A program made the position numbers and the translations under genes. Positions 1,427 to 60,600 of a DNA stretch of 64,000 nt are shown one piece after another. The stretch is from Apostichopus japonicus (Eukaryota; Echinodermata; Holothuroidea; Aspidochirotida; Stichopodidae): assembly GCF_037975245.1 (NCBI RefSeq), contig NC_092562.1, positions 2,947,001 through 3,011,000 of the forward strand, given 5' to 3'. The stretch's first letter is position 1, and every line of letters starts with the position of its first letter. Below the pieces are notes generated by a model. It saw nothing but the letters and a program-made list of their open reading frames with translations, was not told the origin of the DNA and searched no databases.

Positions 1427-1991
1427 AGGGTGTGAAGACTCGCGCAAAAAGAAACGTCTAATGCCGGTAATCTGACCTAGTTTTTAATGAGGTGTAACAG
1501 AAGTGTTAGACATCACCATCGATCTCAGAAAATACACACACAGCTTGCTACCGTCGGTAATTAGACACTAGTGTACAGTCAGTATATACAGCTGCGGTCA
1601 ATACCCACAGCACAGTGTACAAACAATACAGCGATGGACATCTCAGGTCCAGCTAAAGATAACAAGGTATCACGTTTCATTACTGTCTGCATTTTGTAGC
1701 GACACGAACAAAACGTCACATACAAGCAACAGAAAGTTAACTTTATCAGATAGCTTTAGTTTCAATTACCTGAGATGTCCATCGCTGTATCGTTTGTACA
1801 CTGTGCTGTGGGTATTGACCGCAGCTGCATGCACTGACTGTACACTAGTGTCTAATTACCAAAGGTAACAAACTGTAAGCGTATTTACTGGAATCGATAG
1901 TGGTGTCTAACACTTCTGTTACACCTTATTCGAAACTAGGTTAGATTACCGGCATTAGACGTTTCTTTTTTTCCGCGAGTCTTCACACCCT
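1427..1991. mobile_element. Palindromic MITE flanked by TTAA
   Basis: A 565-bp foldback element. The left arm (about 1427-1655) and the right arm (about 1765-1991) are near-identical inverted copies, starting AGGGTGTGAAGACTCGCGC and ending with its complement. Both ends abut TTAA (1423-1426 and 1992-1995), the target signature of piggyBac-type elements. It is related to the element at 35873-36242, which has only one such end. No transposase frame is present. Confidence 0.8.
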
Positions 1992-1995
1992 TTAA

Positions 1996-3147
1996 CAAAT
2001 ACTACAAATTAGAATCAACAAAGCAATCAGTCATTGTCTGAGGATTTCAATTAATCCATCAACATGTCATATGAAATCAAGTTTGTACATATTTGACCGA
2101 ATGTTCAGCTACAATGATCACATTTACTCAACAGCTGAAAAACAGGTATGAAAAATATAAATAAATAAATTGATATGTTTTACGAACAATTTGTACAATA
2201 AATTAATGAACTTTATGATTGATCAAATAACTGAAAAGTTAAAGAAACCATTTACGTTGTTTGTATTTAGCAGTAGATTATGAAAAATAATAAACAATAT
2301 CAACATCATCTGTACTTAGCAGTAGTTTATGAAAAATATTAAACAATATTAAACATTATCTTGAAACAGAATTCAGGTCACTATAAACTCTTGAACCGGC
2401 AGAAAAACACAAATACTGTATAAAATCAGATTTGCAGCAACTTTTTTGTTTAAGAACAAAAGGCATGACAAAACTATGACGGAAACAGAAATTATTTAAA
2501 AAAAAGAGAAATGTGGATGATTGAAAACAAGAAATGTCGATGATTCATGAACAGGAGAGTTGTTCCCAATCTGATGTGGTGTATTCATAGTTCTTCCCTT
2601 TGTCTGTTTCATGTTGAGTCCACAATCTTGTTAGGACGACTTTCATGTTTCTCAGAGATGGAACGATGATGTGAAATACTCTTACTTACATGAATAGTCA
2701 TAAACATTTTTTCAAACCTTTAGTCTGGTTTTGTTAGCTTTGCAAACAAATCAATTTTTTTAAGAACAATAAACAAAGATCATATTAATCATTTAAAATA
2801 TGAAACGAGCTGTACAAATGATATGAAAATGAAAATAGAGTATATGTAAGGTTGAATATAATGCAACATGCTTATTATGCAAATTGACTGATTCATAACT
2901 GCAAACGGATACAGACACCACTGCATTAATTAAACCATACCTGTTGTCATTGTCTGTGTTGTGTTGGTTGGAGACATCTCTGAAATGTTTCATAAAAAAA
3001 ATGTTACGATATTGATGAAGTTGGCTCTTTGCTAATATAGTGATAATATATAACCAACCTACCATCCAAGTAATGTATTTAGCCAAGTTTACTTAGTGTT
3101 AGACACACACAACTATAACATAAAGAAAAAAATGACAGAAACATATC
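1996..3147. other. Gene-free stretch
   Basis: AT-rich. A short imperfect duplication (TAGCAGTAG.TTATGAAAAATA) lies at 2267-2345. Nothing else is recognised. Confidence 0.5.
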
Positions 3148-9245: not shown

Positions 9246-9619
9246 CAGTGGCGTAGGAAGGTACTTTTGAGTGGGGGAGGGGGCTGAAGACTTATGGCCG
9301 GCCTGGGAGGGGTCTAAGGGGAGGGGGAGTCCTCCCTTTGGATTCTTTTGCATTTCCAGGTGGCCTCAGATGCAGTTTGGTGCAATATAGCACACTTCAA
9401 CACCCACTTCATTTTGTAAACTTAATTTTGTATTTTCACCTGGCCTTAGATGCAATTTGGTGCTCCAAATGAGATTTTTTTTCTCATTTGGAAATGAAAG
9501 AGGGGTTTTCTGACTTGCGAAGCGGGGGGGGGGGGGGCGGAATGATACTTCCGCCCCTCCACATTTTTCACTGGGGGGGGGGGGCTGGCGCCCCCAGGCC
9601 CCCGGTTCCTACGCCCTTG
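9246..9619 (+). mobile_element. hAT-type MITE, family A (nested in a SINE tail)
   Basis: A 374-bp element starting CAGTGGCGTAGGAAGG and ending CCTACGCCCTTG. It has exact 8-bp target duplications TTTTAGAT (9238-9245 and 9620-9627), inserted in the (TATG)n/TTTTAGAT tail of the minus-strand SINE at 9620-9853. It contains long G-runs and a palindrome of AAATGAGA/TCTCATTT. Non-coding. Confidence 0.93.
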
Positions 9620-9853
9620 TTTTAGATCCTCCTTGCAAGCAGGGAACTCGCGAAGAAGCCTCATTGGCTTATCAAAGCCGCAAGCTGACCGAAGTCAGTC
9701 TCTTACATTCATATTTAACGTCCATGCATAATTGTGAATTGTCAATTGTCAATAACTCTGTAACTGGACGACACACATTAATCATGGAGTGACTTGAACC
9801 GGGGACCTTATGATTGGAAGGCACCGGCGTTAACGACTGAGCTATCACTCCTA
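9620..9853 (-). mobile_element. tRNA-derived SINE, full-length
   Basis: Same family as 3148-3329, opposite strand. The tRNA-like head is at the right end (about 9780-9853), and body and tail run leftward. The tail TATGTATTTTAGAT continues at about 9205-9245, interrupted by the family A MITE. The MITE is therefore younger than the SINE. Confidence 0.88.
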
Positions 9854-10307
9854 GTATGCACTTGCACTTGCATTATGCACTTGTTTACACATTATGTGTT
9901 TTATTCCTGTTTTTATATTCTTTCGATTGAATGAAAGGGGAAGGAATCGCAAAGTTAGTTTCGATACAAGACTGACTCGATCAATGCTGTGACCTAAAGC
10001 CGTAATATCTTGGCTTCTGTCATAGCTAAATGCAGGAACTAACCATGTATTTTGATAACAACGAGGAAGGAAATCATATAAAGCTAGCGTCATAACACAA
10101 TTCCAAGTGACAGGTGTCTGCCATGGCAATATGTCTTAGTAGATCACTGTATACAACCGGGTATAGGGAAAAAACACTAAAGAGGATTTAACAAGTTTAT
10201 GTGATGCTAATGCTAATATTTTAAACATCACTGCAAACTACTGTAGCTAGTTATCTCTAACCAATAGTGTCCAGGTAACGAACTGGAGTAGGTCCGACCT
10301 TTTTTAC

Positions 10308-10678
10308 CAGTGGCGTAGGAAGGTACTTTTGAGTGGGGGGGGGGGGCTGAAGACTGATGGCCGGCCTGGGGGAGGGGTCTACGGGGAGGGGGTGTCCCCC
10401 CTTTTCAATTTTTTTTGCATTTCCAGGTGGCCTCAGATGCAATTTGGTGCAATATAGCCCACTTCAACTCCCACACCATTTTGTAAAGAATTTTGCATTT
10501 TCACCTGGCCTTAAATGCAATTTGGTGCTCCAAATGAGATTTTTTCTCATTTTGAAATGAAAAAAAGGAGTTTCTGACTTGCGAGCGGGGGGGGGGGGGG
10601 CGGAATGATACTTCCGCCCCCCATATTTTTCACTGGGGGGGGGCTGGCGCCCCCAGCCCCCCGGTTCCTACGCCCTTG
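10308..10678 (+). mobile_element. hAT-type MITE, family A
   Basis: 371 bp, with the same ends as the copy at 9246. Target duplications TTTTTTAC at 10300-10307 and 10679-10686. Several poly-G tracts. Confidence 0.93.
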
Positions 10679-10686
10679 TTTTTTAC

Positions 10687-12147
10687 AACTATTCCCCGCG
10701 TTGAGTTTGTACTAGAATCAAAAGCTATGGTACTGGGCCATAGGCGTCACTTTTGTGGAGGGTGAGATGGGGAAACAATAATGCATTCCTCTCTTTCAGT
10801 ACTTGTTCCAATAATAACCTGCATGCATTCCCCCACACCAACAACAGTGCGCAAACACTGGTCTATTCTTCCATAACATGTTATAACATGGTCTGCCTTT
10901 CTGTCGGGATTTTGTGTATTATGTCCACATCCCCCCTCCCCCCAAAAATCCCCCTCTAGTTTCGGACTCTTTTTCATATTCGCTATATCAGCATGTAAAG
11001 CATGAAAAATTTGCCAATCCTATACGGTACCGAAGCAGAAAATGCTTCTGAACTTCGCGGGGATCGCGTTACGGGCGCAACATTTTGTCACCGTATAGAA
11101 GCCAAGGAAAGGCAACACAAATTCAACAGAATACGCTTGGTCGATCTGAGCGTGTATTATACCAATTGAGTTATCATAGCATGCTATAGCTCTGGGATCA
11201 ATCATCTTCACTGATTGCGACGCAACGAAATGAAAGGTGGAATTATGAATACTTAACAGCCGTTTTAGAGAAAAATTGTTCAGTCCATTGTTGACACTTG
11301 TGTGAGTCCGACAGCAAAGTTTGCGCAAAATACCCGACAGAACGCGACCGAACGCTCGTTGCTGAAACTGAGAGACGCGCCCAAGAGGGGGGGGGGGCAT
11401 TGAAGGGGTCCTAGTCTGTATGAAATACAGCACAACGCAGTCAGTGTCCAGTTTCATCAATTTATTCACTCAACAAGTTAAGAACAGTTTTTGCGCGCAA
11501 ATACATCAGTAAATCCATGACATAAAACATCTCTGCAAGGAATTCACTGTATGGACACTATATTGAAATGGAAAACTGGAGAAATTAGAACACAACAGAT
11601 AATTATTAACATATTCATAGCAAACTGATCACTGAATTGCTACTGGTTAAAACAAATGTAAATTTCCCTGCGATACACTGGAACGATAAAGAAGGCAAGT
11701 CTAAAGTTCTCGCAATTAAACTTTAAACAGCTACTAAACAAAAGGAAACAGAAAAATTAGAGATGAAATCTCCTTGAGTATCAGCATAGCAGTTACATAA
11801 TAATAATATAACAAAACAATAAAAAATTAGTGATATTACTTAAACCGCAAAATGTCGCTTTAACAAGTTTATTAGTTTAAACTCTTGAGTCTTAAAACTC
11901 ACCGGCCCAGTTTTAATTAAAGGTGATATCCAGCATCCTTCAAACCCTCACAGTGACATCTAAGGAGGTTGTGCCTATGTACCATTCGAATTAAAAAAAA
12001 TTAACTTAAAGTACAATGAAATACTCCAGCAAGACAAAATAGAACTATGAACCACAAAAGAGGGCGCAACCCTCCTTTTACTCTCGAGGCTTGAACAATA
12101 TAAGTATGACAACATATTACAAACCGAAAACAGATTTCGCAACGTAC
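10687..12147. other. Gene-free stretch
   Basis: Contains an open frame of 149 codons on the minus strand (11020-11469) with no recognisable domain and a poly-C-derived segment. I do not call it a gene. Confidence 0.45.
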
Positions 12148-12155
12148 CTAGGAAA

Positions 12156-12626
12156 CAAGGGCGTAGGAACCGGGGGGGGGGGGGCTGGGGGGCCAGACCT
12201 AACTCCAATCCCAAATCCGAGCATCAAGAGGGTGTAGCATCATAAACCTATCAATGATAAGTATACCTGAGTTCAAGGGCGTAGGAACCGGGGGCTGGGG
12301 GGTGCCAGCCCCCCAGTGAAAAATATGGAGGGCGGAAGTATCATTCCGCCCCCCCGGCTTCGCAAGTCAGAAACCCCTTTTTCATTTCCAAATGAAAAAA
12401 AAACTCATTTGGAGCACCAAATTGCATCTAAGGCCAGGTGAAAATGCAAAATTATTTACAAAATGGAGTGGGTGTTGAAGTGTGCTACATTGCACCAAAT
12501 TGCATCTGAGGCCACCTGGAAATGCAAAAAAAAAAAAAAAATCCCCCTCCCCTTAGACCCCTCCCCCAGGCCGGCCATCAGTCTTTAGCCCCCCCCCCCA
12601 CTCAAAAGTACCTTCCTACGCCACTG
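12156..12626 (-). mobile_element. hAT-type MITE, family A, composite copy with captured DEPDC1 intron DNA
   Basis: The outer element is 471 bp, with target duplications CTAGGAAA (12148-12155 and 12627-12634). From the left: about 39 bp of normal terminus, then about 79 bp (12195-12273) nearly identical to DEPDC1 intron 7 at 22108-22185, then a complete second terminus and full element from 12274. The target duplication of the 22-kb copy (CCTGAGTT) is retained once, at 12266-12273. Confidence 0.9.
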
Positions 12627-13110
12627 CTAGGAAATGTACTTAGAACATGACTCAGTAAGCAGCAATATAATTCTATTACATACAAATGATGAATTAATCA
12701 CAGTATATGAAACTTGGTAACATCAGGTAGGCTAGCTACAAACACTAATTGTTTGTACGCCAATTAGCTGAAGTATTGATAACAGATCTAGCACATGGCC
12801 TCACTGTTATTGAGGGTTTCCGGTCAAATCTAGCCAAATGACAGGTAAACCCCTGTCCTCACACTGTGTTAACTTAATTGATACTATATATGTTCTCACA
12901 TTACAAACAGGAAACTCTTGCCATTAACTCTAGAGAGTATCTGTTTTCTTCAATTAACTAATCTTCCCAAGCAAAGCTAGATATCATCGATCATCTATGC
13001 TTAAAATCTTGGTCAGCAGTGAATTGACAGCATGGCCCCAGCTCCGGGTGAGGCTATACTTCATATAAGACTCTACTGACTTTGAAGCAAAGGCAGCAGT
13101 AATGTACGTT

Positions 13111-13350
13111 GTGTATGTATATTAGATCCTCCTTGCAAGCAGGAACTCGCGAAGAAGCCTCTTTGGCTTATCAAAGCCGCAAACTGACCGAAGTCAGTCT
13201 CTTACATTCATATTTAACGTCCATGATTATGAATTGTTAATTGTCAACAACTCTGTAACTGGACGACATACTTTAATCTGGGAGTGACTCGAACCGGGCA
13301 CCATATATGATTGGAAGGCACCAGAGTTAACCACTGAGCTACCACCCCAG
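13111..13350 (-). mobile_element. tRNA-derived SINE, full-length
   Basis: Closely matches the copy at 9620-9853 without an insertion. The tail (GTATGTATATTAGATCC) is at the left and the tRNA-like A and B boxes are at 13285-13350 on the minus strand. Confidence 0.88.
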
Positions 13351-13565
13351 TATTCATAACATAATCAACTACCAGCTGCTCCAAAACACTAAGAAGTTCT
13401 GAAGCACATGCACATTAAACCACAGTTGTAAAGAGGCTACGCAAATAAGATAACCTACTGCCCAACAGACTGTTTCTAAAAGAGAAAATCGGAGAAGAGG
13501 ATGACAGAGTTAACCCATGGAGAGCCAAACAGGCAAAATATCTCTTTACCACATTACTATATAGC

Positions 13566-13854
13566 CAGTGGCGTAGGAAGGTACTTTTGAGTGGGGGGGG
13601 GGGGGCTGAAGACTGATGGCCGGTCTGGAGGAGGGGTCTAAGGGGAGGGGGTGTCTCCCTCCCCTTTGGATTTGTTTGCATTTCCAGGTGGCCTCAGATA
13701 CAATTTGGTGCTCCAAATGAGATTTTTTTTCTCATTTGGAAATGAAAAAGGGGTTTTCTGACTTGCGAAGCGGGGGGGGGGGGGGCGGAATGATACTTCC
13801 GCCCCTCCACATTTTTCACTGGGGGGCTGGCGCCCCCCGGTTCCTACGCCCTTG
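13566..13854 (+). mobile_element. hAT-type MITE, family A, internally deleted
   Basis: 289 bp with intact family A ends and target duplications TATATAGC (13558-13565 and 13855-13862). It lacks about 80 bp of the interior that the 9246 and 10308 copies have. Confidence 0.92.
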
Positions 13855-15089: not shown

Positions 15090-16015
15090 CGATGTTCCCG
15101 GGGTTCAATGATCCCAGGGTTCGATATTCCCCGTTTTCGTGTTATTTCAATGGCTGACGATGAATACGAGGTTCGTTGTTCCCAGGGTTCGATGTTCCCA
15201 AGGTTCGTTGTTCCCAGGGTTCGATGTTCCCAGAAATATCGATGTTCCCAGGGTTCGATGTTCCCAAGGTTCGATGTTCCCAGGGTTCTATGTTCCCAGG
15301 GTTCTATGTTCCCAGGGTTCGATATTCCCCGTTTTCGTGTTATTTCAATGGCTGACGATGAATACGAGGTTCGTTGTTCCCAGGGTTCGATGTTCCCAAG
15401 GTTCGTTGTTCCCAGGGTTCGATGTTCCCAGAAATATCGATGTTCCCAGGGTTCGATGTTCCCAAGGTTCGATGTTCCCAGGGTTCTATGTTCCCAGGGT
15501 TCTATGTTCCCAGGGTTCAATGTTCCCAGGGTTCTATGTTCCCAGGGTCCAATGTTCCCAGGGTCCGATGTTCCCAGGGCTCGATATTCCCATGTTTCGA
15601 TGTTCCCAGGGTCTGAGCCTGTCCCCGAGCACGGTCGGGCAGCACCAAAGCGGGACCCTCTTAATTCTCGGCCTCGTGGAACTCTGGACTCTCAGGTCAA
15701 CACTTCTGTGCGGCTCTTACTGAACAACGTCCCTTCGGGTGATTTTTGAAAAAAAGGGACATCAAACCCTGGGAACATCGAACCCTGGGAACATCGAACC
15801 CTGGGAACATCGGACCCTGGGAACATTGGACCCTGGGAACAAAGAACCTTGGGAACAATGGACCCTGGGAACATCGAACCCTGGGAACATCGAACCCTGG
15901 GAACATTGGACCCTGGGAACATCGAACCCTGGGAACATCGAACCCTGGGGCCTGGGAACATCGAACCCTGGGAACATCGAGCCCTGGGAACATTGGACCC
16001 TGGGAACATTGACAT
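15090..16015. repeat. 16-bp minisatellite arranged as a giant inverted repeat
   Basis: The left arm (about 15090-15615) is many copies of GGTTCGATGTTCCCAG and variants. The right arm (about 15762-16012) is the inverse complement, CCCTGGGAACATCGAA. A 150-bp unique spacer separates them. Inside the left arm a 198-bp higher-order unit is duplicated: TCGATATTCCCCGTTTTCG recurs at 15121 and 15319. Because the unit is 16 bp, three units cycle through all frames, which explains the long open frames on both strands. These are not genes. Confidence 0.95.
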
Positions 16016-19757: not shown

Positions 19758-22700
19758 TTAACGAATTGGTTTGAGCCTCGTGAAAGATCTTTTTAACATT
19801 GGTTGCTTAATCTTTGGTTTGGTTGGAAACAGTTCGGCTTCACTAGCTGCTGTCGGGAGTCGCTTCTTGTAGATTTCGGGATAAGCTTTCTGAAACTAAA
19901 AAGAACAAAAGAGAAGAAGAAAGAAATGTAATAGGCTCTAATAAAAGAACAAAAGAGGGCAGGAAACTTACTTATTTAAATTGATTTAAATGATTGATTT
20001 AAAATACAGCAGTACTTTTCTGTTCATGTGGTTGTTGAGAATTCCAAGACCAATTGAAAGTTTTAAATATTATACATACATTGAGCAGTCCATATTAACT
20101 TTGGTTTAATGTGCTTGATTCCAACGATTGGCACACTCCTGACTCGGCTTTCTGAAGTATTGCTTACCACTTTTAGCCTCTTTTTCTTCTCCTTGACTTC
20201 CATGTTCTTATCGGCAATTATCGTCTCCAACAAGTCACTCATGGCCTTCTGAGATGTCGTCTGAATATCATTCTGATATTCTTCCTTGGTAATCTGCTTA
20301 CAGTACACAACTGAGGAACCAGCCTTTGCATTATACTGCAAATGAAAGTGTAAACGCATCACTAAGTTTTGTAGGTGATATTATTCATTTATAATGAATC
20401 AAACTGACTTTCCGTATCTACAACGGTGTCCAGCATTTTGCAAATTTATGCAAGTGTATCTAAAAGGAAATGATGATCTGCATTGTTTCAGGATATTTGA
20501 AGGGGATTAGCTTAATTAAGGAGGTTAGTAATCCATTAGTATAAATATAAACCTTTGCTTCCAGCCAAACCTCATCGGCAAAGTTTCATATTACAGCATG
20601 CTACTTTTGCACAGTGAAAACAACATATATGGAGTTGTAACTTAAACATGATTCAAACTATTACTGCCTTCAAATTGTTGACAGGTTGTTGTTGACAATT
20701 GTTGTTGTTGACAATTGACAATTCATAATCATGGACGTTAAAATATGAATCTAAGAGACTGACTTCGGTCAGCTTGCGGCTTTGATAAGCCAATGATGGC
20801 TTCTTCGTGAGTTCCTGCTTGCAGGAGGATCTAAAATACATACATACATTTGGTTTCAACTTCACCTCTATGCATGCAATTCATAAGTACCAGAAAACAA
20901 AAATTTGAGAATCCTTTCATGCTTTAGCTGCACTTTACTTTGGTGGCCAATTTTTGTTCAAACCCATCCACTACTATCATGCAAAAATTAGATTGCAATT
21001 GATCACCATGCCACCATCCCAGATGGGTTTTTCCTCTCGACCAAATGAAGGTTGAGTTTGAAAAATAATTACTGAATTTGATTTGATCCTGAACATATTT
21101 CACCACATTGTAGTCTCATTAAACAAATAGAAAATGATATATAGATATATATCTAATGCTTGAAGCTGATAAATCAGAATTAAATAAAATGGCCAGTATC
21201 GTTCCGGCAAAACCTTAGATTCATTGCATTTGTTATTCCAAATATTGGTAGCTTAAGACATATTCCAAAAAGATCAGTTTCCACTTGGATAAATCAATTA
21301 GAAGCTTATGGTCATTGTGATACAGTACTTAGGTTTAAATACAGTCCTACCTGTGAACCCTGTTCCAAGTTTACTCTTTCACTGACATCAGCCGTCAGGG
21401 CAGCGGATGAGGCAAGTATTGTGTTGAAGTTATCCAGGAGGTATGACACGATTCGGTTGGCGTATGCTTCGTCGAAATCCACCTCTGATTCAGTTCTCAG
21501 GATGCAACGTGTGAATGTATGTAAGAGCTGCATTTTAAGAGCAAATATAATTTTTGAAAAAAAAAAAAAAAAAAAACGCTCAATGGAAAGTGTCTAACGA
21601 GGAAAATTAACCAGCGATTAAGAAGGTTTTCATAGTTGATTATATTAGTACATTATAACATGCATCATACATTATATACCTAACTGTGGGAAGAATATTA
21701 CAGGTAAGGGATCAATAATCTAATGACATAAATAAAATGATGAAACATCTCATCAAGAGGAGAAAATTTAAACTATTTCACAATTTGTTTCTTAATTTTT
21801 AGTATTTTATGCTATTCTTATGACCATAATAGAAAGTTGAAAACTCTGGATCCATTTACAAATGCAGCCAAATATTTGCCTATGTACAGATTATTTACTA
21901 TACAATTTGAGTACTTAGCAATAGACATCACATACAGTATAAACCTACTGTACACTTTGTATATAATCCATACATCCTACTGTACATACATAATTTAAGT
22001 ATCTGGAAGAGAATATGTTCCATAATTCACATTGTTGAGGCAACAGTGCCATGGCTACCTCACAAAGCAGAAATCAGCATGCTGTTATCAATGAGCTCTC
22101 ATTTTCTAGACCTAACCCCAATCTTAATACGAGCATCAAGAGGGTGTAGCATCATAAACCTATCAATGATAAGTATACCTGAGTTCAAGGGCGTAAAAAC
22201 CGGGGGCTGGGGGGCGCCAGCCCCCCAAGTGAAAAATATGGTGGGGCGGAAGTAACATTCCGCCCCCCGCTTCGCAAGTCAGAAAACCCCTTTTTCATTT
22301 CAAAATGAGAAAAAAAATCTCATTTGGAGCACCAAATTGCATCTAAGGCCAGGTGAAAATGCAAAATTATTTACAAAATGGAGTGGGTGTTGAAGTGTGC
22401 TATATTGCACCAAGTTGCATCTGAGGCCACCTGGAAATGCAAAAAAATCCAAAGGACCCCTTAGACCCCTCCCCCAGGCCGGCCATCAGTCTTCAGCCCC
22501 CCCCCCACTCAAAAGTACCTTCCTACGCCACTGCCTGAGTTACTCACCAAGTCTCTCTTGGACTCCTGTGGGTACAGTTGCAGCTCTTCGTTCCTTTCCA
22601 CTTTACTCATCATCTTGAAAAGAAGATGAAGTTTCCGTCTGTTTGGTGGTGGCAGCAACAGGAGCGCCAACCTCATAGCTTCTTCACAGTAAGACTTATT

Positions 22701-46145: not shown

Positions 46146-49100
46146 ATGGACCAAGAATTTGAAAAAAGGCTCTTAAGGCAGCTGAATGGACAAAGCCCAG
46201 TTGGTTCTACAGTTGTTAAGGTACTAATAGTGTATTTCTTGGCACAATTAATAATAAAAACCGAACTACCTTGATACAGATAGAAATATGAAGATACTGA
46301 TGATTGGGTTCCAGTGCCAAATGCTATAGGTACATACCGCCATACCATTACGCCATAGGTATCGAACCTTTCCTTGAAACCTAATGGTGGAAAGGTACAT
46401 TTTAGGAATGGATTTAACACAGGAATGTATCGTTGAAACTTTTTTGTCTTCATATGTGACAGATTGCTGGATAGACTGAATTATCAAGAGTGGGGAATTG
46501 ATACACAGTCTTTAATGTACATGTTAATTGAATAGTTTTAATTGTAAGTTCGTAAGAGTCGATACACTGTCCTCAAATATATAACATAGTTGGTTAAATA
46601 AATCAAATTAATAAACCGATTCCGATTGCTGATCTAAATGAACAATTTTTTGGATCTTGCGGGCCTAGGAAGTGTGAAGCGAAGCAATAAACAGTACATA
46701 TAGGCCAAGGCCTACAGTGCACCCACAATAATTTGCTCTTTCTGCCATACAAAAGTGCATTACCGCCATCGGAGTAACATGGGGGAATGGTACTTTTTCT
46801 TTGGCGGACAGAGCACATTTTCTATGGCGGAATGTACCGATGGCGGAATGACACAGCCCACTGATCAGTGTATTCCTTAGGCATATGATGGTGTTAAATT
46901 CAAACTGAGTTTTTGCTTCATACCTGTTTTAAAAGGGAGGTGAAAAAACCTGCAATTTTATTGATCAACAATAAACCAAACCAATGAAAGTCTATGAACC
47001 AATCAAATTCAGTAGGCTGAATTGGTCATAAAATTCATTTAGTTTAACTCAGATCTGAAGGTGAGTTTTTCCTTTTTCATGTAGCCAAAGGTATGACATA
47101 GCACAGCAATTATCTAAGAAACTTGAAAATCACATCTACAATATAAGAAAAGGCCTGAATAAAAAGTGACCTGTAGTACAGTCACAGAAATTAAAGAGGA
47201 GGAACTAATAAATGGAATCGACTGGTAGCCAGTGAAGCTGGGTTAGTTTGCAGTCTGAGGTTTAAATGAAAAGCCTTCCTATTACAGTAGTTACTTGTAC
47301 AGTTAAATTCCGAATGTGCTGTACAGCTTTATTGGAATAAAAATGCTGGAGTCAAATCTTACTCCAAGATTTGTGATTTATAGGAGTTGCAATTGACACT
47401 TTCATGCAGATACTGGAACACCATTGAAACTTGTCTCTTTTGTTTTAAGTATTAATGAAAATTATTTTGAACCTGTTTGTTCCTTTTCAAATGTTTCTGT
47501 TTGAAGTGAATATTAATACTTAAACAACTTGTATAGCGCAATATGCAAACGCTTCAAAGTGCGTTACTGGGAAAACCCCTTAAAACAGCAAAAAAACAAT
47601 TAAATTAACAAAAATACAAATCTTAATATAAAAAAGTTTAAAACAGTAAACAAAAACAAAAATTTAAAACAGTTTAAAATTTTTTTTTTTTTTTTAAAGT
47701 TTATCAAAAAAATACAATTTAAAACAGATATAAAAAAAAATTCAGTTTAAAACGATACATTGTGTAGTATGCAATACAATCTTTATTGGTCCCATTAACT
47801 ATCATATTTACTGGTTCTTGAAGTGAAAGTTTGTTTGAGCTGGTGATAAATCTTTGATCTTTATTTTGTAGACCATGACACCTGGCAAGGCAGCATCTCC
47901 TTGCAAAGAACAATACGGAGATCGCTTTATACCAAGCCGAGCTGGTTCCTCTTGGCATACCAAGTTTGATTCTCCCACCAAGAAGGAAGATGTGAGCAGC
48001 TCGGCTACAAAGAAGGAGAGAGAAGGAGCAGAAACAGGAGAAGGTACATTATATATTATCTAAATTTACATTTTAAATTTATTATTGTCGTATTGCTGTC
48101 ATATTGTTTAAGTTTACATTACATATTCTAAAGATATGCTGGCCTATCAAACGGTACACTTCAATCAAATTGATGATCTCTACCTTGGAAAGTTCTAAGA
48201 AGTTATTTCCCACGTGAGTGTTACAGTTGTACTGTACGTCTCTATGTTTAAAAGAAATGCTGGTCTACCACCCCATAGAATGTTAAATTGATAGACTGTA
48301 CCTTGGAAGTTACCGCCCACATTGGTCTACAGTTTACATTACAATTTTGTTAATAGATATGCTAGCCTTTTCATTCCTCAATGCAATCAAATTGATCAAC
48401 TGTGCCTTGGAAGTTATCGCCCACATTGGTATACAGCTTACATTACAAATTCTGTTAATAGATATACTGGCCTTTTCATTCCTCAATGCAATCAATGCGT
48501 TTTAAGTTATGGCCAACATTGGTCGACAGTTTACATTACAAATTCTGTTAAAAGATATACTGGCCATTTCTTTCCTCAATGCAATCGAATTGATCGTCTG
48601 TGTGTGGGAAGTAATCGCCAACATTGGTCTACAGTTTACATTAAAATTTCTGTTAATAGATATGCTGGCCTTATCATTCCTCAAAGCAATTAAATTGGTT
48701 GTCTGTACATTGTAAGTTATCGCCCACATTATTTCTCTATGTCTGTAGATATGCTGGCCTATCACTGCTTACTACAGAATGAACTATTAGGTGCTGAAAT
48801 ATCCACCGTCAAGGATCCCCAGTGTGAAGACAGACGTATGGTCAGCCTACAGAAAGCCAAGCGGAATCTCTTCACCTATAGTGTGAAGACCCAACGTCCA
48901 TCTCTAGCAATAGGGCAAGACCAAGAACCATATTCGTTATCACCAGTGGGGAAGGACAGGTGAGTCATTCATTGATGAAAGAGTAACCACTTGGTAACCA
49001 CTAACCACTTTCTTAAAGTATTGTGCTAAGACTTTTAAGTTGGACTGTAAGAGCATTACTGATAAGATTAACGGTGCAGCTAAAAGTGAATTTATTAGAA

Positions 49101-52100
49101 TCACCAGGAATATTGATAAGGATAGTAAACACCCTCTTAATAAAGAACTCAACTCTCTTTGTCTACAAACTAACTATAATTTACAAAATCGTGCAATAAA
49201 ACCAAAATATAGGGTTCAAATTTTCAAAAGTTCATATTTATACAGAGCATCTATTTTTATTCAAAATGGAATATTAAAGTACATTTCCAATCTGACCCAT
49301 TGCAGCCAAAAATTGTTGCGGTCTCCACGGAAGCCGATGAGAAAGATATCCAAGATACCGTTCAAAGTCCTGGATGCCCCCGAACTCCAAGACGATTTTT
49401 ACTTGAACCTGGTCGACTGGTCGTCGACAAATATACTCAGCGTCGGTCTGGGTACTTGTGTGTACCTCTGGAGTGCTTGTACCAGTCATGTGAGTAAACA
49501 TGTATCAGTGTATAGTCATGTGCTTTGTATACTCAGCGTTGGTCCGGGTACCTGTGTATGTCTCTGGGGTTTCTTTGTACCCATCATTCAATAAATTACA
49601 ACAGTTCTGTTCTCAGTGGCAGCCCCTCAACATGCACTGTGATCGCTGGACTGCTTGCAGCGTTTTACACACTGTGTGATTGTCAATTATACTGTCAGTA
49701 AACCCACTAATCTCAGATATTTTTGAGATCCCACATTCACAATGCTTTGGCTATATATACAGCTTTATTCATTGGTTTTAATTTATTTTTGCGTCTCCAC
49801 CAGGTGACCAGACTCTGCGACCTCGCTGTCGATAACGATTCAGTCACATCCGTAGCTTGGAATGAGAGGGCAAGTATTCTTGTTAAAGTGTCAAGTAGCA
49901 AGGAGAGTAGTACTACCCAATACAACGTAGACAAGTGGTGATTTATATGTGCTGAAATAACTCTATCCAATTCTATGCCATGCTGTGTCAGTGTTGGTCT
50001 TTTAAAACTATCAGGAAGTAAGAAGAGTACCACGTACAATGACAAGTGATTTTTAAGCAGAAGTAACTCTATCCCATTCTATGCCATGATGTCAGTATAC
50101 AAGGTATACAGAGCAGCTGAAAGGTTGTTATTTGGGTCATGTAAGAAGTATTTAAAAATGCCTTGTTGATGGGGATCAATTTGTCAATTGATAAAACAAA
50201 GTTAACAATGTGATTTCTCCTTGCCGTTGTGGTGAATTATGTTCTGAAAGTATTTATTGTGAAACAGAAAACAGTTGTTTGTACTTGGAGAGCATAATAT
50301 CCTTTAATGAATCAAGGTTAACTATAGACATTGAATATTTTACCTTAAGTGTGCATTAGTTCAGTGCAGGTTAGAATACATGCCGTACAGTACTGTACAG
50401 TATATCGCCTTATTAAAGAAGCAGTAACATCACAGCTTCCTGCATTACTGGTAACGTCTAATCAGCTTTGTGGCATTTTACAATTCCTCTTCCTGGGAAA
50501 ACATTAGAATTTTTTGGGTGGCCTCATAGGAATTGATGTTATTTCAATGTACTGTATCGACTTGTAACTTTGGACTGTTCTTTACGGTGCAGGGCCTCCA
50601 AGTCGCTGTGGGTACTCACAAAGGCTTAGTACAGATATGGGATGCCAGTTCCCAGAAGAAGTTGGTCACATTGGAAGGTCACTCAGCCAGAGTAGGTAGG
50701 TATCCATCTGACTCGAGATTAATTGTTGCATGTAATTTCTTGATTATCTTGAGTTTAATATTGAGAACACTTTAAGCAGTGTATCCACGTTAGTTCATAT
50801 CTTCAGACGGATGTATATGTGTGCTTACCGTGTGCACAGAGGCATACGTTGTAGCGTTGCATCTATATTGTCAGTAGTAAAACTCACTTATTGTTTAAGA
50901 GACATTCAAATATTCTTTCCCACACTAATAATAGTTTCCTATTTGTCATTAGCTTTGCCTTTACAAGTTAGGTAGCATATCATTAGTTTTGTTATTTGAA
51001 AGAGCTTTTAACACATGAAACAAGCAGGCTAACCTTATTATAATACACACTGGTATCCTGCGAAACTAAAAACTTTATGAACGATGGAAAAAATGTGAAA
51101 TGATTTAAAAGATTCATTTAGATCTTAATTATAATAAACACATTTCCAAAGTTACTAAATTCAGAAAAAAATAAATGGTGAGGTGTAGGAAGTGACCAAT
51201 GGTCAAAGACAAATATTTATTCCTTTTTTTTTTTTACATAATTCTTGTCATGAACCGAGAGCGACGTTGCATTTCAGTTAAAAGAGAGTTCTATAAGTGA
51301 CCAACCATAATTGTGGTCTATATATGTGACTACCTCTCTATAGGCGCTCTAGCTTGGAACGGTGACTCAATCTGCTCTGGAAGCAGGGACAGAATGATTC
51401 TTCAGAGGGACAGCCGTAGTGCCAGCCCATCCTCTGTCAGGAGTCTAACCGGTCATCGGCAAGAAGTCTGCGGCTTAAAATGGTCACCCGACCATCAATA
51501 TCTAGCATCTGGTGGTAATGACAATAAGGTAAGTTGTATCTGTGTTACGGCTCGGCTCCCCGGCATAGACAGGTCTCAGTAATTTTCAGAATTATGTAAC
51601 TGCCCTCCACACACCCCCCACCCACCCGCCCATCCCCGGTAAGATGGCATTTGATTGGATCAACACGCCTCAAAATTATCCTCGCTTTGTCTAGTCATCT
51701 TACCGTCTGAGACGAAACAGAAAAGGCGGAATTTGCTGTAATTGAAGAATAGTGATAGATGAACAAAATGGCTGGTTTCTTTCTTCTTTAAGGGGGGATC
51801 CTTTTGGGGTTTGTTAGTGTAGATTTTTCTTCTTCATTGTTGTAGGTATGTAAGCTCCATTTAGTGGAAAATCAATGAAGAGTCAGCTATGTCTTGAATA
51901 ATTCTAATGGTTAATATTCACATAATCCTTTGTTTATTGATTACTATTGAGTACTTTAATAGGTCAGTTGAAAACCACAAAAGTTTAGGACCTGTTTCTC
52001 GTGACTTGGTGTACGGTGTTAAAGAAACAGTCAGAATGTGGCTTTATTTGCCAAACTTACTTTCCAGCTATTTTACTAGTGAGCTGTTGCTTTTACATTA

Positions 52101-55100
52101 ATAAAAGTGAATTTCTTGAGATATTTAACATTTTCATATTGAAATTTGTATATGCAACAATTCAAATTTGCAAGGCTGGAGCTTTTACATGCTAGCTTGG
52201 TAATTCCATCGAAGAAGAAAAGAAATAATTTTCAGCCCTGCATTTCCCAGTCATTTTTCCATTTTCTTCTCATTAGCTTTTTGTCTGGAGCCATTCCAGT
52301 AACTTCCCGATCCAGCAATATTCAGATCACACGGCTGCGGTGAAGGCCATTGCCTGGTCTCCGCACCAGCATGGCCTGCTCGCCTCGGGGGGTGGAACGG
52401 CGGATAAATATATCCGTTTCTGGAACACCCTCACAGGGCAGACTCTGAATGCAGTGGACACTGGATCACAAGTGTGCAATTTAGCCTGGTCAAAGCATGA
52501 CAATGAATTGGTGAGTAGATTCTTTTGGTCTTTCTACTTCATCAGCTCATAGAGGACTTAGACAAAAGTAGAAGGGATGTTTACCTGCTACTGTAGCAAA
52601 TAAATGCCTGGTGAAATTTGCATTCAATTCCTCTGTATCATCTTCAAGGTGATTAACAATATTTTGAAGTTGACATTTTTTAGTACCAAAAGTGAAACCG
52701 ATTTGATGTAATAGAACTTTACACACTGACATTTTTGTTTGTTTTTGTGGTGTTGTTTTTTCTCTTAAAAATCTTCGTCATTGATCCATGAACGATATGA
52801 GTCACAATAAGCATATTGCATTATATTGCAATATTGCACAATAAAAAATATTGCATGATATTGCAATATTGTACAATATGCATGAATGCATAAATTATTG
52901 AATATAGACAGCCATTTGGGTATTGATAACTTCACATCCCCGGAGCAAATTTGCACTGTATCCAATCCAAGATCCAAGAGTGGATATCGTATCCATTATC
53001 GTATCCAATCGGTTCGTATACAAATCGGTATACGATCGTAGACGTATGGTATATTGTATAGTATTAGTATATCGTATTGTATTGTATTGTATCTAATCCA
53101 ACATTGAAATATGACCCACACAATAAAGTGCATAAAATACAGAAAAGTAAAGCATTTCGCTGTCAATGTGTAACTATGACATCACACCTGTTTGTTCCCA
53201 GTTGACTCACGGTATAATCTGTGAGAATTTCTACCATCGATATCTTACAATTTAAGCCAATGTAAAGAATTGTATGCAAATTTTACCCGAATTCTCAGTT
53301 AAATGTCTTCTTCTTTTTATTAGACAAATTTCAATTTTACATGTAGACTATACTTGTAAGAGAGTAAGGAACGACTGTTTCAACAAGGAGAGCTAAATAA
53401 GAAATTAAAAGTTGTCCTAGTGGTTGACTTCCAATCAATACGATGTGTGCTATGTTCGTTAATAGGCGGTCACATTCATGTCATTCCATCTCATTAATGC
53501 TGATTGGCTTTGTGTAAGTCAATGATCGTTATTATGCCCTTGTAATGCTCTGGGAATCAACTGTCAAGTCATTGGGTGAAGTTTTGAGTAGTGATTAATG
53601 CTTTCTGTGGAATTTTAGAAACAGTCAAACTTAGCTAATGTGGCATGCTCTTTCTTTTAATACTTCCCTCAATGCAGGTCAGTACCCATGGTTACTCTCA
53701 GAACCAGATCTTAGTCTGGAAGTATCCATCGTTGGTTCAAGTAGCCAAACTTACTGGACATACATTTAGAGTTCTCTATTTGGTAAGTTCACATTTTTAA
53801 TTCGCTTGATTGAACATTCCTTCCTTTATTTGATGATTTCTTATGTCATATTTGATGAATGTACATGCTATCAATGTGTGAATGTTACTCCTGGTACAGC
53901 ATATGTATATATATATATCGGCGCTGTCAGGGGGCTTCTTTGAACGGTTGCCATGACAACATTTGGATACAAATTCGCTACGCTTGTTGATTGCGTTGTA
54001 GCTTTTGTCGGCTCTGCTTCTTAATTTGTATATTAGAGCGCTTTTGGATTTCCCAAAAAATTGAGTGACCAATTTTTTATTTCTTTTTAAGTCCCAGATA
54101 TATTTTGACAGCTTAGTTTCTTTTTGGTAAAGCTCGTTGCGGAACGATTTGGTATTATATATATATATATCGTTATAAATTATTAATATATATATGTAAT
54201 AATCAAGACATACATGAACAGAATGTAAATACTAATTCAAATGTACAGAACATGTGTGAAACACTTTTAAGCACAGCCTGGATATTGTACTTCAAGGTCA
54301 TTCAATTCAATACTGTACAGCTTTTAATGTCATATATACACAAAATGACATTTGCTATGTATTGAATAGTTACGAATAGACGAAAAGAACTTGCATCTAT
54401 CGATCGTGTCACCAAACGTTAACATTTATTCTACCGCAGGCTGTTTCCCCAGATGGTGAGGCCATTGTTACCGGTGCCGGAGATGAGACTCTCAGGTTTT
54501 GGAATGTCTTTAGCAAATCCAGATCCACAAAGGTAAATCATCCCCAGTGGATAGACTTATGTTACTTTGTTTTCTATTATTAATTTCATTATTTTTAATT
54601 TGATAGAAGAATGTACCGGTTGCATTATTATTGGTAATACAAGACTTTATTGACTTTTTTCTGTGAACGGGTAGACGTTTAATTTATGCCGTAATAATTT
54701 TATTTTAATTTTTTAATTGTAATATTTTAATTTTATACCATATTTTATGCCTTCACTTCATATCATGCCCATAGCTGCTCATTAAAACCTGCAATCCAAT
54801 GCAGATCACATATTTTGACCCACACTTTTAATGTATTTGTTTTAGTTTATTATTCTTTAATTTCAACTGCAAACCAACCCCTCTCCTTGTCGCTCTGGTA
54901 GACTGAAATAGTAGAACACATTAGCGGGGTATCTTATCTTTCCATTAGACACAGTCCGATTGTAGTCCAAGTGTGAATGCTTTAACCAGAAATAAAATAC
55001 AGGCAGTCCGATTTGTGGTATGGGTATTAAATTCACTGCCTGTATAGACGTGTCTAACAGGGGTGGGGAGGTTGGGGCGGGGGGGGATTCTGTGAAAATG

Positions 55101-57626: not shown

Positions 57627-60600
57627 GGTTCCTTGCTTTAGCAAAAGGAACCTATGCAGTCAGGTTGGCGTGTGTGTGTATGTATGTATGTGTGTGTGTG
57701 TGTGTGTCTGTGACACTTGCTTGGGTACGCTCTATCTCAATAAGGGAATGTTGGATTGAGGCCAAACTTGGACTATAGATCCGCCATATGGAGAAGGTGT
57801 GCCCTATTGTTTCTGGTGCCCACAAAGGTCACCAAAGGTCAGTTATGGTCCAAAAACCGAAAATATTAAAACTGCAATAACTCCCAGTGCCAATGTGTGA
57901 CAAGATTGATATTTTGGGACAAGTTGTGAACTGGTTAGGGGAGCATTTTCAAACTTAACGGTCATGTGATCCGAGGTCACCAAAGGTCAATTAATGATAA
58001 AAAACTAGTACTTTTGCGATAACTTGAGAACGAAATTTCCGTTAGGGTTGGGAGTTGCTTCAATGTTATTCAATTGTCGACCCGCATCTGGGTGACCCTT
58101 GACCTCAATTTGACCTCTGGTGACCTTTACGTGTTTTGGGGGATTTTTACAGTTTTGATGCTATTTTCAGATGTCAAAGGTACCTTCTGATCATAAATGT
58201 CAATGGGTTGACCCCGTGTGACCTTTATGTGCGAAGTTATATGGGGTCAAAGTTTTTCGGTCAGAGTTAGGATGGTTGTACAGACTTGTTGTTTTGTTTT
58301 TTGGAATCAGGAGATTAAACTACATCTGAAACCAAGGTCAAAAGGTCAAAGGTCACATTAGAAAAAATGTGCTTATTTTGGGAGGAAACGAGCAAAAAAG
58401 GAAATGTTTGGTTTTGATGCTAGATTTGGATATCAAAGGTACCTTCCGATCAAAAATGTCAATTGGTTGACACCCGTGTGACCTTCGTGTGCGAAGTTAT
58501 ACGAGGTCAAAGTTAATTTTCAGACATTTAATGCAACAACTCCCAGTTCCAAGGTGTGACATGGTTGATATTTTTGGACAAGTTGCAAATGGTATAGGGG
58601 AATATTTTCAAACTTAACGGTCATGTGATCCGAGGTCACCAAAGGTCAATTAATGTTAAAAAACTAGTATTTTTGGGGCAGAAAATGGGCAAAGAAAAAA
58701 TGTTTGAATTTGTATAGTTTGATGCTCAAATTTAGGTCTCATCAATCAAAAATGTCAATAAGTTGACCCAAGGTGACCTTTGTATGTTAAGTTATATGAG
58801 GTCAAAGTTAATTTTCAGACATTTAGTGTAATAACTCCCAGTGCCAAGGTGTTACACAGTTGATATTTTGAGACAAGTTGCAAATGGTATAGGGGAATAT
58901 TTTCAAACTTAATGGTCATGTGATCCGAGGTCACCAAAGGTCAATTAATGATAAAAAACTAGTATTTTTGCGCTAACTTGAGAACAAATTGTCCGTTAGG
59001 GTTGGGAGTTGCTTCAATGTAATCCAATTGTCGACCCGCATCTGGGTGACCCTTGACCTCAATTTGACCTCTGGTGACCTTTTCGTGTTTTGTGGATTTT
59101 TACAGTTTCGATGCTATTTTCAGATGTTAAAGGTACCTTCTGATCATAAATGTCAATAGGTTGACCCCCATGTGACCTTCATGTGCGAAGTTATATGAGG
59201 TCAAAGTTAATTTTCAGACATTTAATGCAATAACTCCCAGTTCCAAGTTGTGACAAGGTTGATATTTTTGGAGTAGTTGCAAATGGTATAGGGGAATATT
59301 TTCAAACTTAAGGGTCATGTGATCCGAGGTTACCAAAGGTCAATTAATGATAAAAAACTAGTATTTTTGCGATAACTTGAGAACAAATTGTCCGTTAGGG
59401 TTGGGAGTTGCTTCAATGTAATCCAATTGTCGACCCGCATCTGGATGACCCTTGACCTCAATTTGACCTCTGGTGACCTTTTCGTGTTTTGTGGATTTTT
59501 ACAGTTTCGATGCTATTTTCAGATGTTAAAGGTACCTTCTGATCATAAATGTTAATGGGTTGACCCCCGTCTGACCTTCGTGTGCGAAGTTATATGAGGT
59601 TTAAGTTAATTTTCAGACATTTAGTGTAATAACTCCCAGTGCCGAGGTGTTACACAGTTGATATTTTTAGACAAGTTGCAAATGGTATAGGGGAATATTT
59701 TCAAACTTAAGGGTCATGTGATCCGAGGTCACCAAAGGTCAATTAATGATAAAAAAACTAGTATTTTTGCGATAACTTGAGAACAAATTGTCCGTTAGGG
59801 TTGGGAGTTGCTTCAATGTAATCCAATTGTCGACCCGCATCTGGGTGACCCTTGACCTCAATTTGAGCTCTGGTGATCTTTTCGTGTTTTGTGGATTTTT
59901 ACAGTTTCGATGCTATTTTCAGATGTTAAAGGTACCTTCTGATCATAAATGTCAATGGGTTGACCCCCATGTGACCTTCGTGTGCGAAGTTATATGAGGT
60001 CAAAGTTAATTTTCAGACATTTAATGCAATAACTCCCAGTGCCAAGGTGTGACCAGGTTAATTTTTTTGGACAAGTTGCAAATGGTATAGGGGAATATTT
60101 TCAAACTTAACGGTCATGTGGTCCAATGTCACCAAAGGTCAGCTAATGTTAAAAAAGTAGTATTTTGGGGGGAGAAAATGGGCAAGAAAAAATGTTTGAA
60201 TTTTTACAGTCATGCTCTATTTAGGTCTCACCTTTCAAAAATGTCAATTGGTTGACCTTCGGGTGACCTTTGTGTGTGAAGTTATGTATACAAGTTCAAA
60301 GTTAATTTTTTTTAATTTAATGCAATTAAATCTCAATGCCAAGGTGTGACATGGTTGATATTTTGGGACAAGTTGTGAACGGGGTGGTGGAACATTTTGA
60401 AACTTAAAGGTCATGTCATCTGAGGTCACTAATGTTATCATATCTGTTGACACGCTTGTAGGTCTCTTATATTTCTTACATTTTCGACGCCATACTTAGA
60501 TCTCAAAAGTGCCTTTTGATCCAAAATTCGATCACATTTTGTGATCACAAAAGTGTTGGCTATAGTGTTGGTTACTTTATGGGAACATGTAGGACCACAA

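Follow-up and report, generated by a model that had tools for sequence, protein, structure and literature searches.

We identified a composite transposable element in a 64,000-nucleotide stretch of the Apostichopus japonicus genome (C2:2,947,001-3,011,000, G000), hereafter called the window; the genome as a whole comprises 671.6 Mb in 35 contigs. The element lies on the plus strand some 12 kb into the window and is bounded on both sides by the TSD CTAGGAAA (12148-12155 and 12627-12634). Its first part is a 41-bp MITE left end (12156-12196) with the run pattern G13-CT-G6, of which the final CCAG comes from the left hairpin. This is followed by a captured intron segment of 77 bp (12197-12273), the last 8 bp of which (12266-12273) are a second, different TSD, CCTGAGTT, and then by a complete MITE of 353 bp (12274-12626) with the run pattern G5-CT-G6, which provides the sole right end of the composite. 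The left junction is ambiguous, as the dinucleotide AG is common to both sides, and a 2-bp match of this kind is frequent by chance. The sequence-only reading had described an outer and an inner left terminus with about 79 bp between them that are nearly identical to DNA beside a MITE at 22 kb. Alignment and the TSDs confirm this arrangement, with a segment of 77 bp, and support the view that the composite is a hAT-type MITE enclosing a private stretch of copied intron DNA.

The MITE family has copies of about 350 bp with TIRs (CAAGGGCGTAGGAA versus CAGTGGCGTAGGAA, inverted) that are imperfect close to the tip. The 8-bp TSD is exact in 32 of 38 copies and, in another sample, in 55 of 67, as well as in all five copies in the window. 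Genome searches returned between 1,963 and 2,285 first-look candidates, and the mean divergence from a consensus of 41 copies is 2.3%. The 8-bp TSD, the TIRs, the short length and the high copy number all indicate a hAT-type MITE. Four members of the family lie inside 4.6 kb (9246-13854), three of them on the minus strand and all with exact 8-bp TSDs. Folding of the hairpin was not significantly better than that of shuffled sequences, an Rfam search of positions 8,000-32,000 gave no match, and neither did a plasmid search.

The donor locus lies 10 kb further into the window. The source of the captured segment is 76 bp of intron DNA (22110-22185, plus strand) that directly precedes a 348-bp MITE (22186-22533, plus strand). 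This MITE carries CCTGAGTT on both sides (22178-22185 and 22534-22541, plus strand), as the earlier reading had stated. The right copy lies a few bases into the intron and adjoins the splice donor GTGAGT, which the MITE has left intact; the GT of the neighbouring exon, an exon read by eye, is at 22546-22547 on the minus strand, as is the gene. This gene also encodes a DEP domain (PF00610, E 2.2e-14) and is putatively DEPDC1, the name given in the earlier reading. The locus at 22 kb holds no duplicate of the flank plus left end.

The captured segment and its source (12197-12273 and 22110-22185) are identical at 72 of 77 columns, differing by four substitutions and one gap. All of these differences fall within the first 21 columns (12197-12217), beside the joined end, and the final 56 columns are identical, a clustering that was noticed post hoc. 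The local alignment score of 111 compares with a maximum of 29 among 500 shuffles. When a 67-bp query (12200-12266) was searched against the whole genome, two first-look candidates gave two matches, those at 12 kb and 22 kb. In another search, in which 40 places were scored of 2,285 candidates, only these two of the 40 extend before query position 87. The same composite was not found at several places with different TSDs; besides its source, the segment is present at 12 kb only. The further copies that would have marked the segment as a dispersed repeat were thus looked for and, at the sensitivity of the search tool, the two-place occurrence rules such a repeat out.

The direction of transfer is from 22 kb to 12 kb, as the sequence-only reading had proposed. 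CCTGAGTT occurs twice at 22 kb, where it flanks the MITE, and once at 12 kb, inside the element. The single internal copy is the left TSD of the donor, and therefore the segment moved from 22 kb to 12 kb. We rejected the reverse direction because at 22 kb the second CCTGAGTT separates the MITE from the splice donor. The structure of the 12-kb composite, both TSDs, the occurrence at two places and the direction are all shown by the sequence.

A second composite of the same family was found on contig C19 (C19:20387063-20387540, minus strand; L036:201-678). The TSD CATTACAG bounds it on both sides, and between the two TSDs lie, in this order, an outer left end of 69 bp, a foreign insert of 56 bp and a complete MITE. 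The outer left end covers MITE positions 1-21 and 41-89 in its matches, and the first hairpin is absent. The single instance of AAGGGCGTA at this locus is the outer end, the inner end being mutated. By searching 18 kb of neighbouring sequence we found the source of the insert in the left flank (20380762-20380817, 56 of 56 positions identical) of a donor MITE at 20380818-20381190, which is about 6 kb away and in the opposite orientation to the composite. The 9-mers flanking the donor (CCTTGAACA and CTTTGAACA) agree at 8 of 9 positions. No clear microhomology is seen at the junction.

Several variants distinguish the parts of the C19 composite. A C at position 3 is common to the inner left end and the donor and occurs in 0 of 68 other copies. 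Likewise, CCAGTCC is common to these two and occurs in 2 of 68 other copies. At position 3 the outer left end carries the usual A, and it lacks CCAGTCC. In the family, the alleles at sites 53 and 176 are tightly linked (A-G in 40 copies, G-A in 23, G-G in 5 and A-A in none; n=68). The donor on C19 is A-G and the outer end has G at the first of these sites, and the inner copy is A-A. The inner copy differs from the donor by 1 substitution in 133 positions on the left, including the flank, and by 15 in 260 positions on the right side (Fisher P 0.015). Judged from these haplotypes, the inner copy is a recombinant that joins the left end of the donor to the right part of a resident G-A MITE, which also owns the outer end. 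The recombinant haplotype is found in 0 of 68 other copies, and so the left end of the donor and its flank were copied into a MITE that was already in place. This footprint is explained by repair filling, and not by movement of a whole composite or by tandem duplication of the donor left end.

Among 67 loci rescanned for left ends, four have more than one left end on one strand, and no locus has two right ends on one strand. Of the four, L036 is a true composite. At L052 a family MITE is nested in a member of another MITE family (about 2368-2445), with the TSD CTTTTTCT on both sides; at L070 the neighbour is a member of that other family (about 1960-2252, minus strand), which is related but distinct and has the ends CAAGGGCGGCGGAACC; and at L053 the second left end is 1.5 kb off. 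The share of one composite in 67 is not a rate, because the sampled loci are the best matches to the 12-kb or the 22-kb element. A genome-wide scan for two exact left-end 13-mers spaced 114-143 bp apart returned both composites only, and its control returned 0. The same spacing scan with a longer anchor returned the 12-kb composite only.

We consider it probable that the 12-kb composite was made by repair filling between resident MITEs. Our confidence in this reading rose from little better than even to its present level because the C19 composite, which has an identical design, shows a donor tract in a resident MITE. For the 12-kb locus we infer a break, a strand invasion and an order of events as follows. 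A plain MITE with the TSD CTAGGAAA would already have been present, and the TSD fits such a residence before the capture. A double-strand break would have occurred in the left end of this MITE, at or near the G-rich hairpin, and the right-hand broken end, which consists of MITE sequence, would have invaded the 22-kb MITE by homology. Repair synthesis may then have proceeded leftwards out of the 22-kb MITE, across CCTGAGTT and through the 76 bp of intron. The new strand would finally have been released and end-joined to the left stump through the shared AG. The net gain would be about 118 bp, that is, 77 bp of intron and 41 bp of duplicated left end. The captured segment is a single copy located 10 kb from its source, and repair filling, as one event, explains both the proximity and the single copy.

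The variants of the MITEs in the window pull both ways on the mechanism. The run pattern G5-CT-G6 is found in the inner left end at 12 kb and in the 22-kb MITE, and in 3 of 69 other copies; the outer end has G13-CT-G6. This shared pattern appears to favour an inner left end derived from the donor. At alignment column 256 the 12-kb copy has a C, as do 5 of 69 copies, versus a T at 22 kb, which favours a right part of different origin. Neither the 12-kb nor the 22-kb MITE is among the best 40 matches of the other. However, divergence between the two MITEs is higher in the left part (11/155) than in the right part (5/251; Fisher P 0.016), which is opposite to the pattern on C19. The family as a whole does not have a left bias (3.8% on the left, 3.5% on the right), and 7 of 2,278 pairs are equally or more skewed. 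The left-part changes sit on both copies. This excess counts against repair filling, which leaves it unexplained. The results for hairpin folding and for microhomology at the two junctions likewise weigh against it. Divergence of the flank (4/76) exceeds that of the right part, so by this clock the insertions are no older than the capture, and the 12-kb event is old. An argument from short forms at alignment columns 303-330 was dropped, since the forms vary from copy to copy.

The alternative closest to the sequence-only reading is end bypass that follows a tandem duplication at the donor locus, similar to FoSTeST. Template switching at a 22-kb allele would first have doubled the 76-bp flank together with the initial 41 bp of the adjoining MITE. 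Transposase would then have paired the outer left end with the sole right end, and the entire composite would have moved to 12 kb. This scheme accounts for the exact structure and the TSD, and for a capture roughly as old as the insertions. In addition, the five-site haplotype ATGAT is common to the 12-kb and 22-kb MITEs (15 of 69 copies), as transfer of a whole element predicts. Nevertheless, it requires two rare steps and the loss of the duplicated allele, given that 22 kb holds no duplicate, and the captured segment is found at no further place in the genome. Measured against the 41-copy consensus, the two MITEs share no derived variant. End bypass also requires the outer left end to be a copy of the donor, and in the C19 composite the outer left end differs from the donor. 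We therefore regard end bypass as unlikely. The earlier claim that the segment was captured at 22 kb and carried to 12 kb by the element is the weaker reading, as the outer end and right part of the C19 composite come from a MITE already resident there.

Still less likely than end bypass is a composite insertion through alternative transposition. In this scheme one MITE copy would have contributed its left end and a replicated 22-kb MITE its right end, the two inserting jointly at 12 kb, re-replication inwards from both ends would have aborted, and the broken ends would have been fused. The ends could thus come from two different MITEs, and the product resembles the solo composite insertions described for Ac/Ds in its ends, donor flank, 8-bp TSD, short microhomology and near target (PMC4270019). 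However, re-replication in the maize events reported there extends 4,781-18,866 bp per fork, versus 41 bp and about 430 bp here. The scheme also does not predict that the right part of the C19 composite differs from that of its donor, and the C19 composite speaks against insertion of the Ac/Ds type for this MITE family. A dispersed repeat or an assembly error with no transfer at all is highly improbable: a family of this size makes confusion of copies conceivable, and we found no support for it, as the segment occurs at two places only, the copies differ, their flanks are unlike and their TSDs are different.

The composite can be compared with several described systems. It is similar to the single-copy Pack-TIRs of animals (Tan et al. 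2021, PMC8277862) in being a TIR element with one non-TE segment from a single nearby source, and these too are described as independent of transposition and as including hAT elements. According to that survey, single-copy cases arise mostly by gap filling, with 160 of 281 sources less than 15 kb away and multicopy cases far from theirs, and their junctions have a median microhomology of 2 bp. The survey considered segments of >100 bp, left out sources that had TEs within 100 bp, and states that cases of end bypass may have been missed (PMC8277862). The 12-kb composite differs from the surveyed elements in that its segment is 77 bp and its source adjoins a MITE of the same family; the filters it falls outside are search cut-offs rather than biology. 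In P-element end bypass or transduction, as described in the same paper, the flank of an element is likewise enclosed with it. However, downstream sequence there serves as an accidental end, and the outer end of the 12-kb composite is a genuine left end of a MITE.

The composite also resembles the repair-mediated duplications of the human genome (Pace et al. 2009, PMC2671141), in which a TE is interrupted by nearby DNA of similar size that is found at one other place. For the interrupted human TEs, that study reports a donor within 5 kb in 824 of 1,136 cases and a mean of 162 bp, and attributes the duplications to synthesis-dependent strand annealing (PMC2671141). Unlike those cases, long homology between MITEs would give one of the junctions here, and the copied tract includes the end of an element. 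The composite insertions of Ac/Ds (Zhang et al. 2014, PMC4270019) likewise have hAT ends, an 8-bp TSD and an enclosed duplicate of donor flank, but as described there they involve kilobases and were observed as new events in maize, versus about 118 bp here.

Gap filling and repair-mediated duplication are already known. The present variant is one in which homology between two copies of an element supplies one junction, and consequently the end of the donor element and its flank are copied together. We found no description of this variant in the literature searched, which is not proof of its absence. We tentatively suggest that abundant MITEs may act as homology landing pads, where a nearby copy serves as the template for repair of a break in a left end, and overshoot of the synthesis imports unique flank together with a TSD. 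Two composites of this design were found in the genome, the one at 12 kb and the one on C19. If this suggestion is correct, shuffling of flanking DNA over 5-10 kb may be common in MITE-rich genomes. Surveys that discard sources beside TEs would miss the class, and the published animal survey filtered it out. The structure mimics a transposon that carries host DNA, yet the better-preserved case on C19 shows it to be the product of repair between two resident MITEs. As the direction can be read from the donor TSD within the copy and the mechanism from a recombinant haplotype, sequence alone suffices to test the model in any genome rich in MITEs.

The window contains further repeats and genes. 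A 16-bp minisatellite (GGTTCGATGTTCCCAG) at 15090-16009 forms two facing arrays that make up a 180-bp inverted repeat. A tandem array with units of about 399 bp extends over 57826-60465; TRF reports 3.6 copies at 58745-60166, and the outer units are diverged. Exons of a WD40 protein of the CDC20/Fizzy type (PF24807) lie on the plus strand at 48998-52552.
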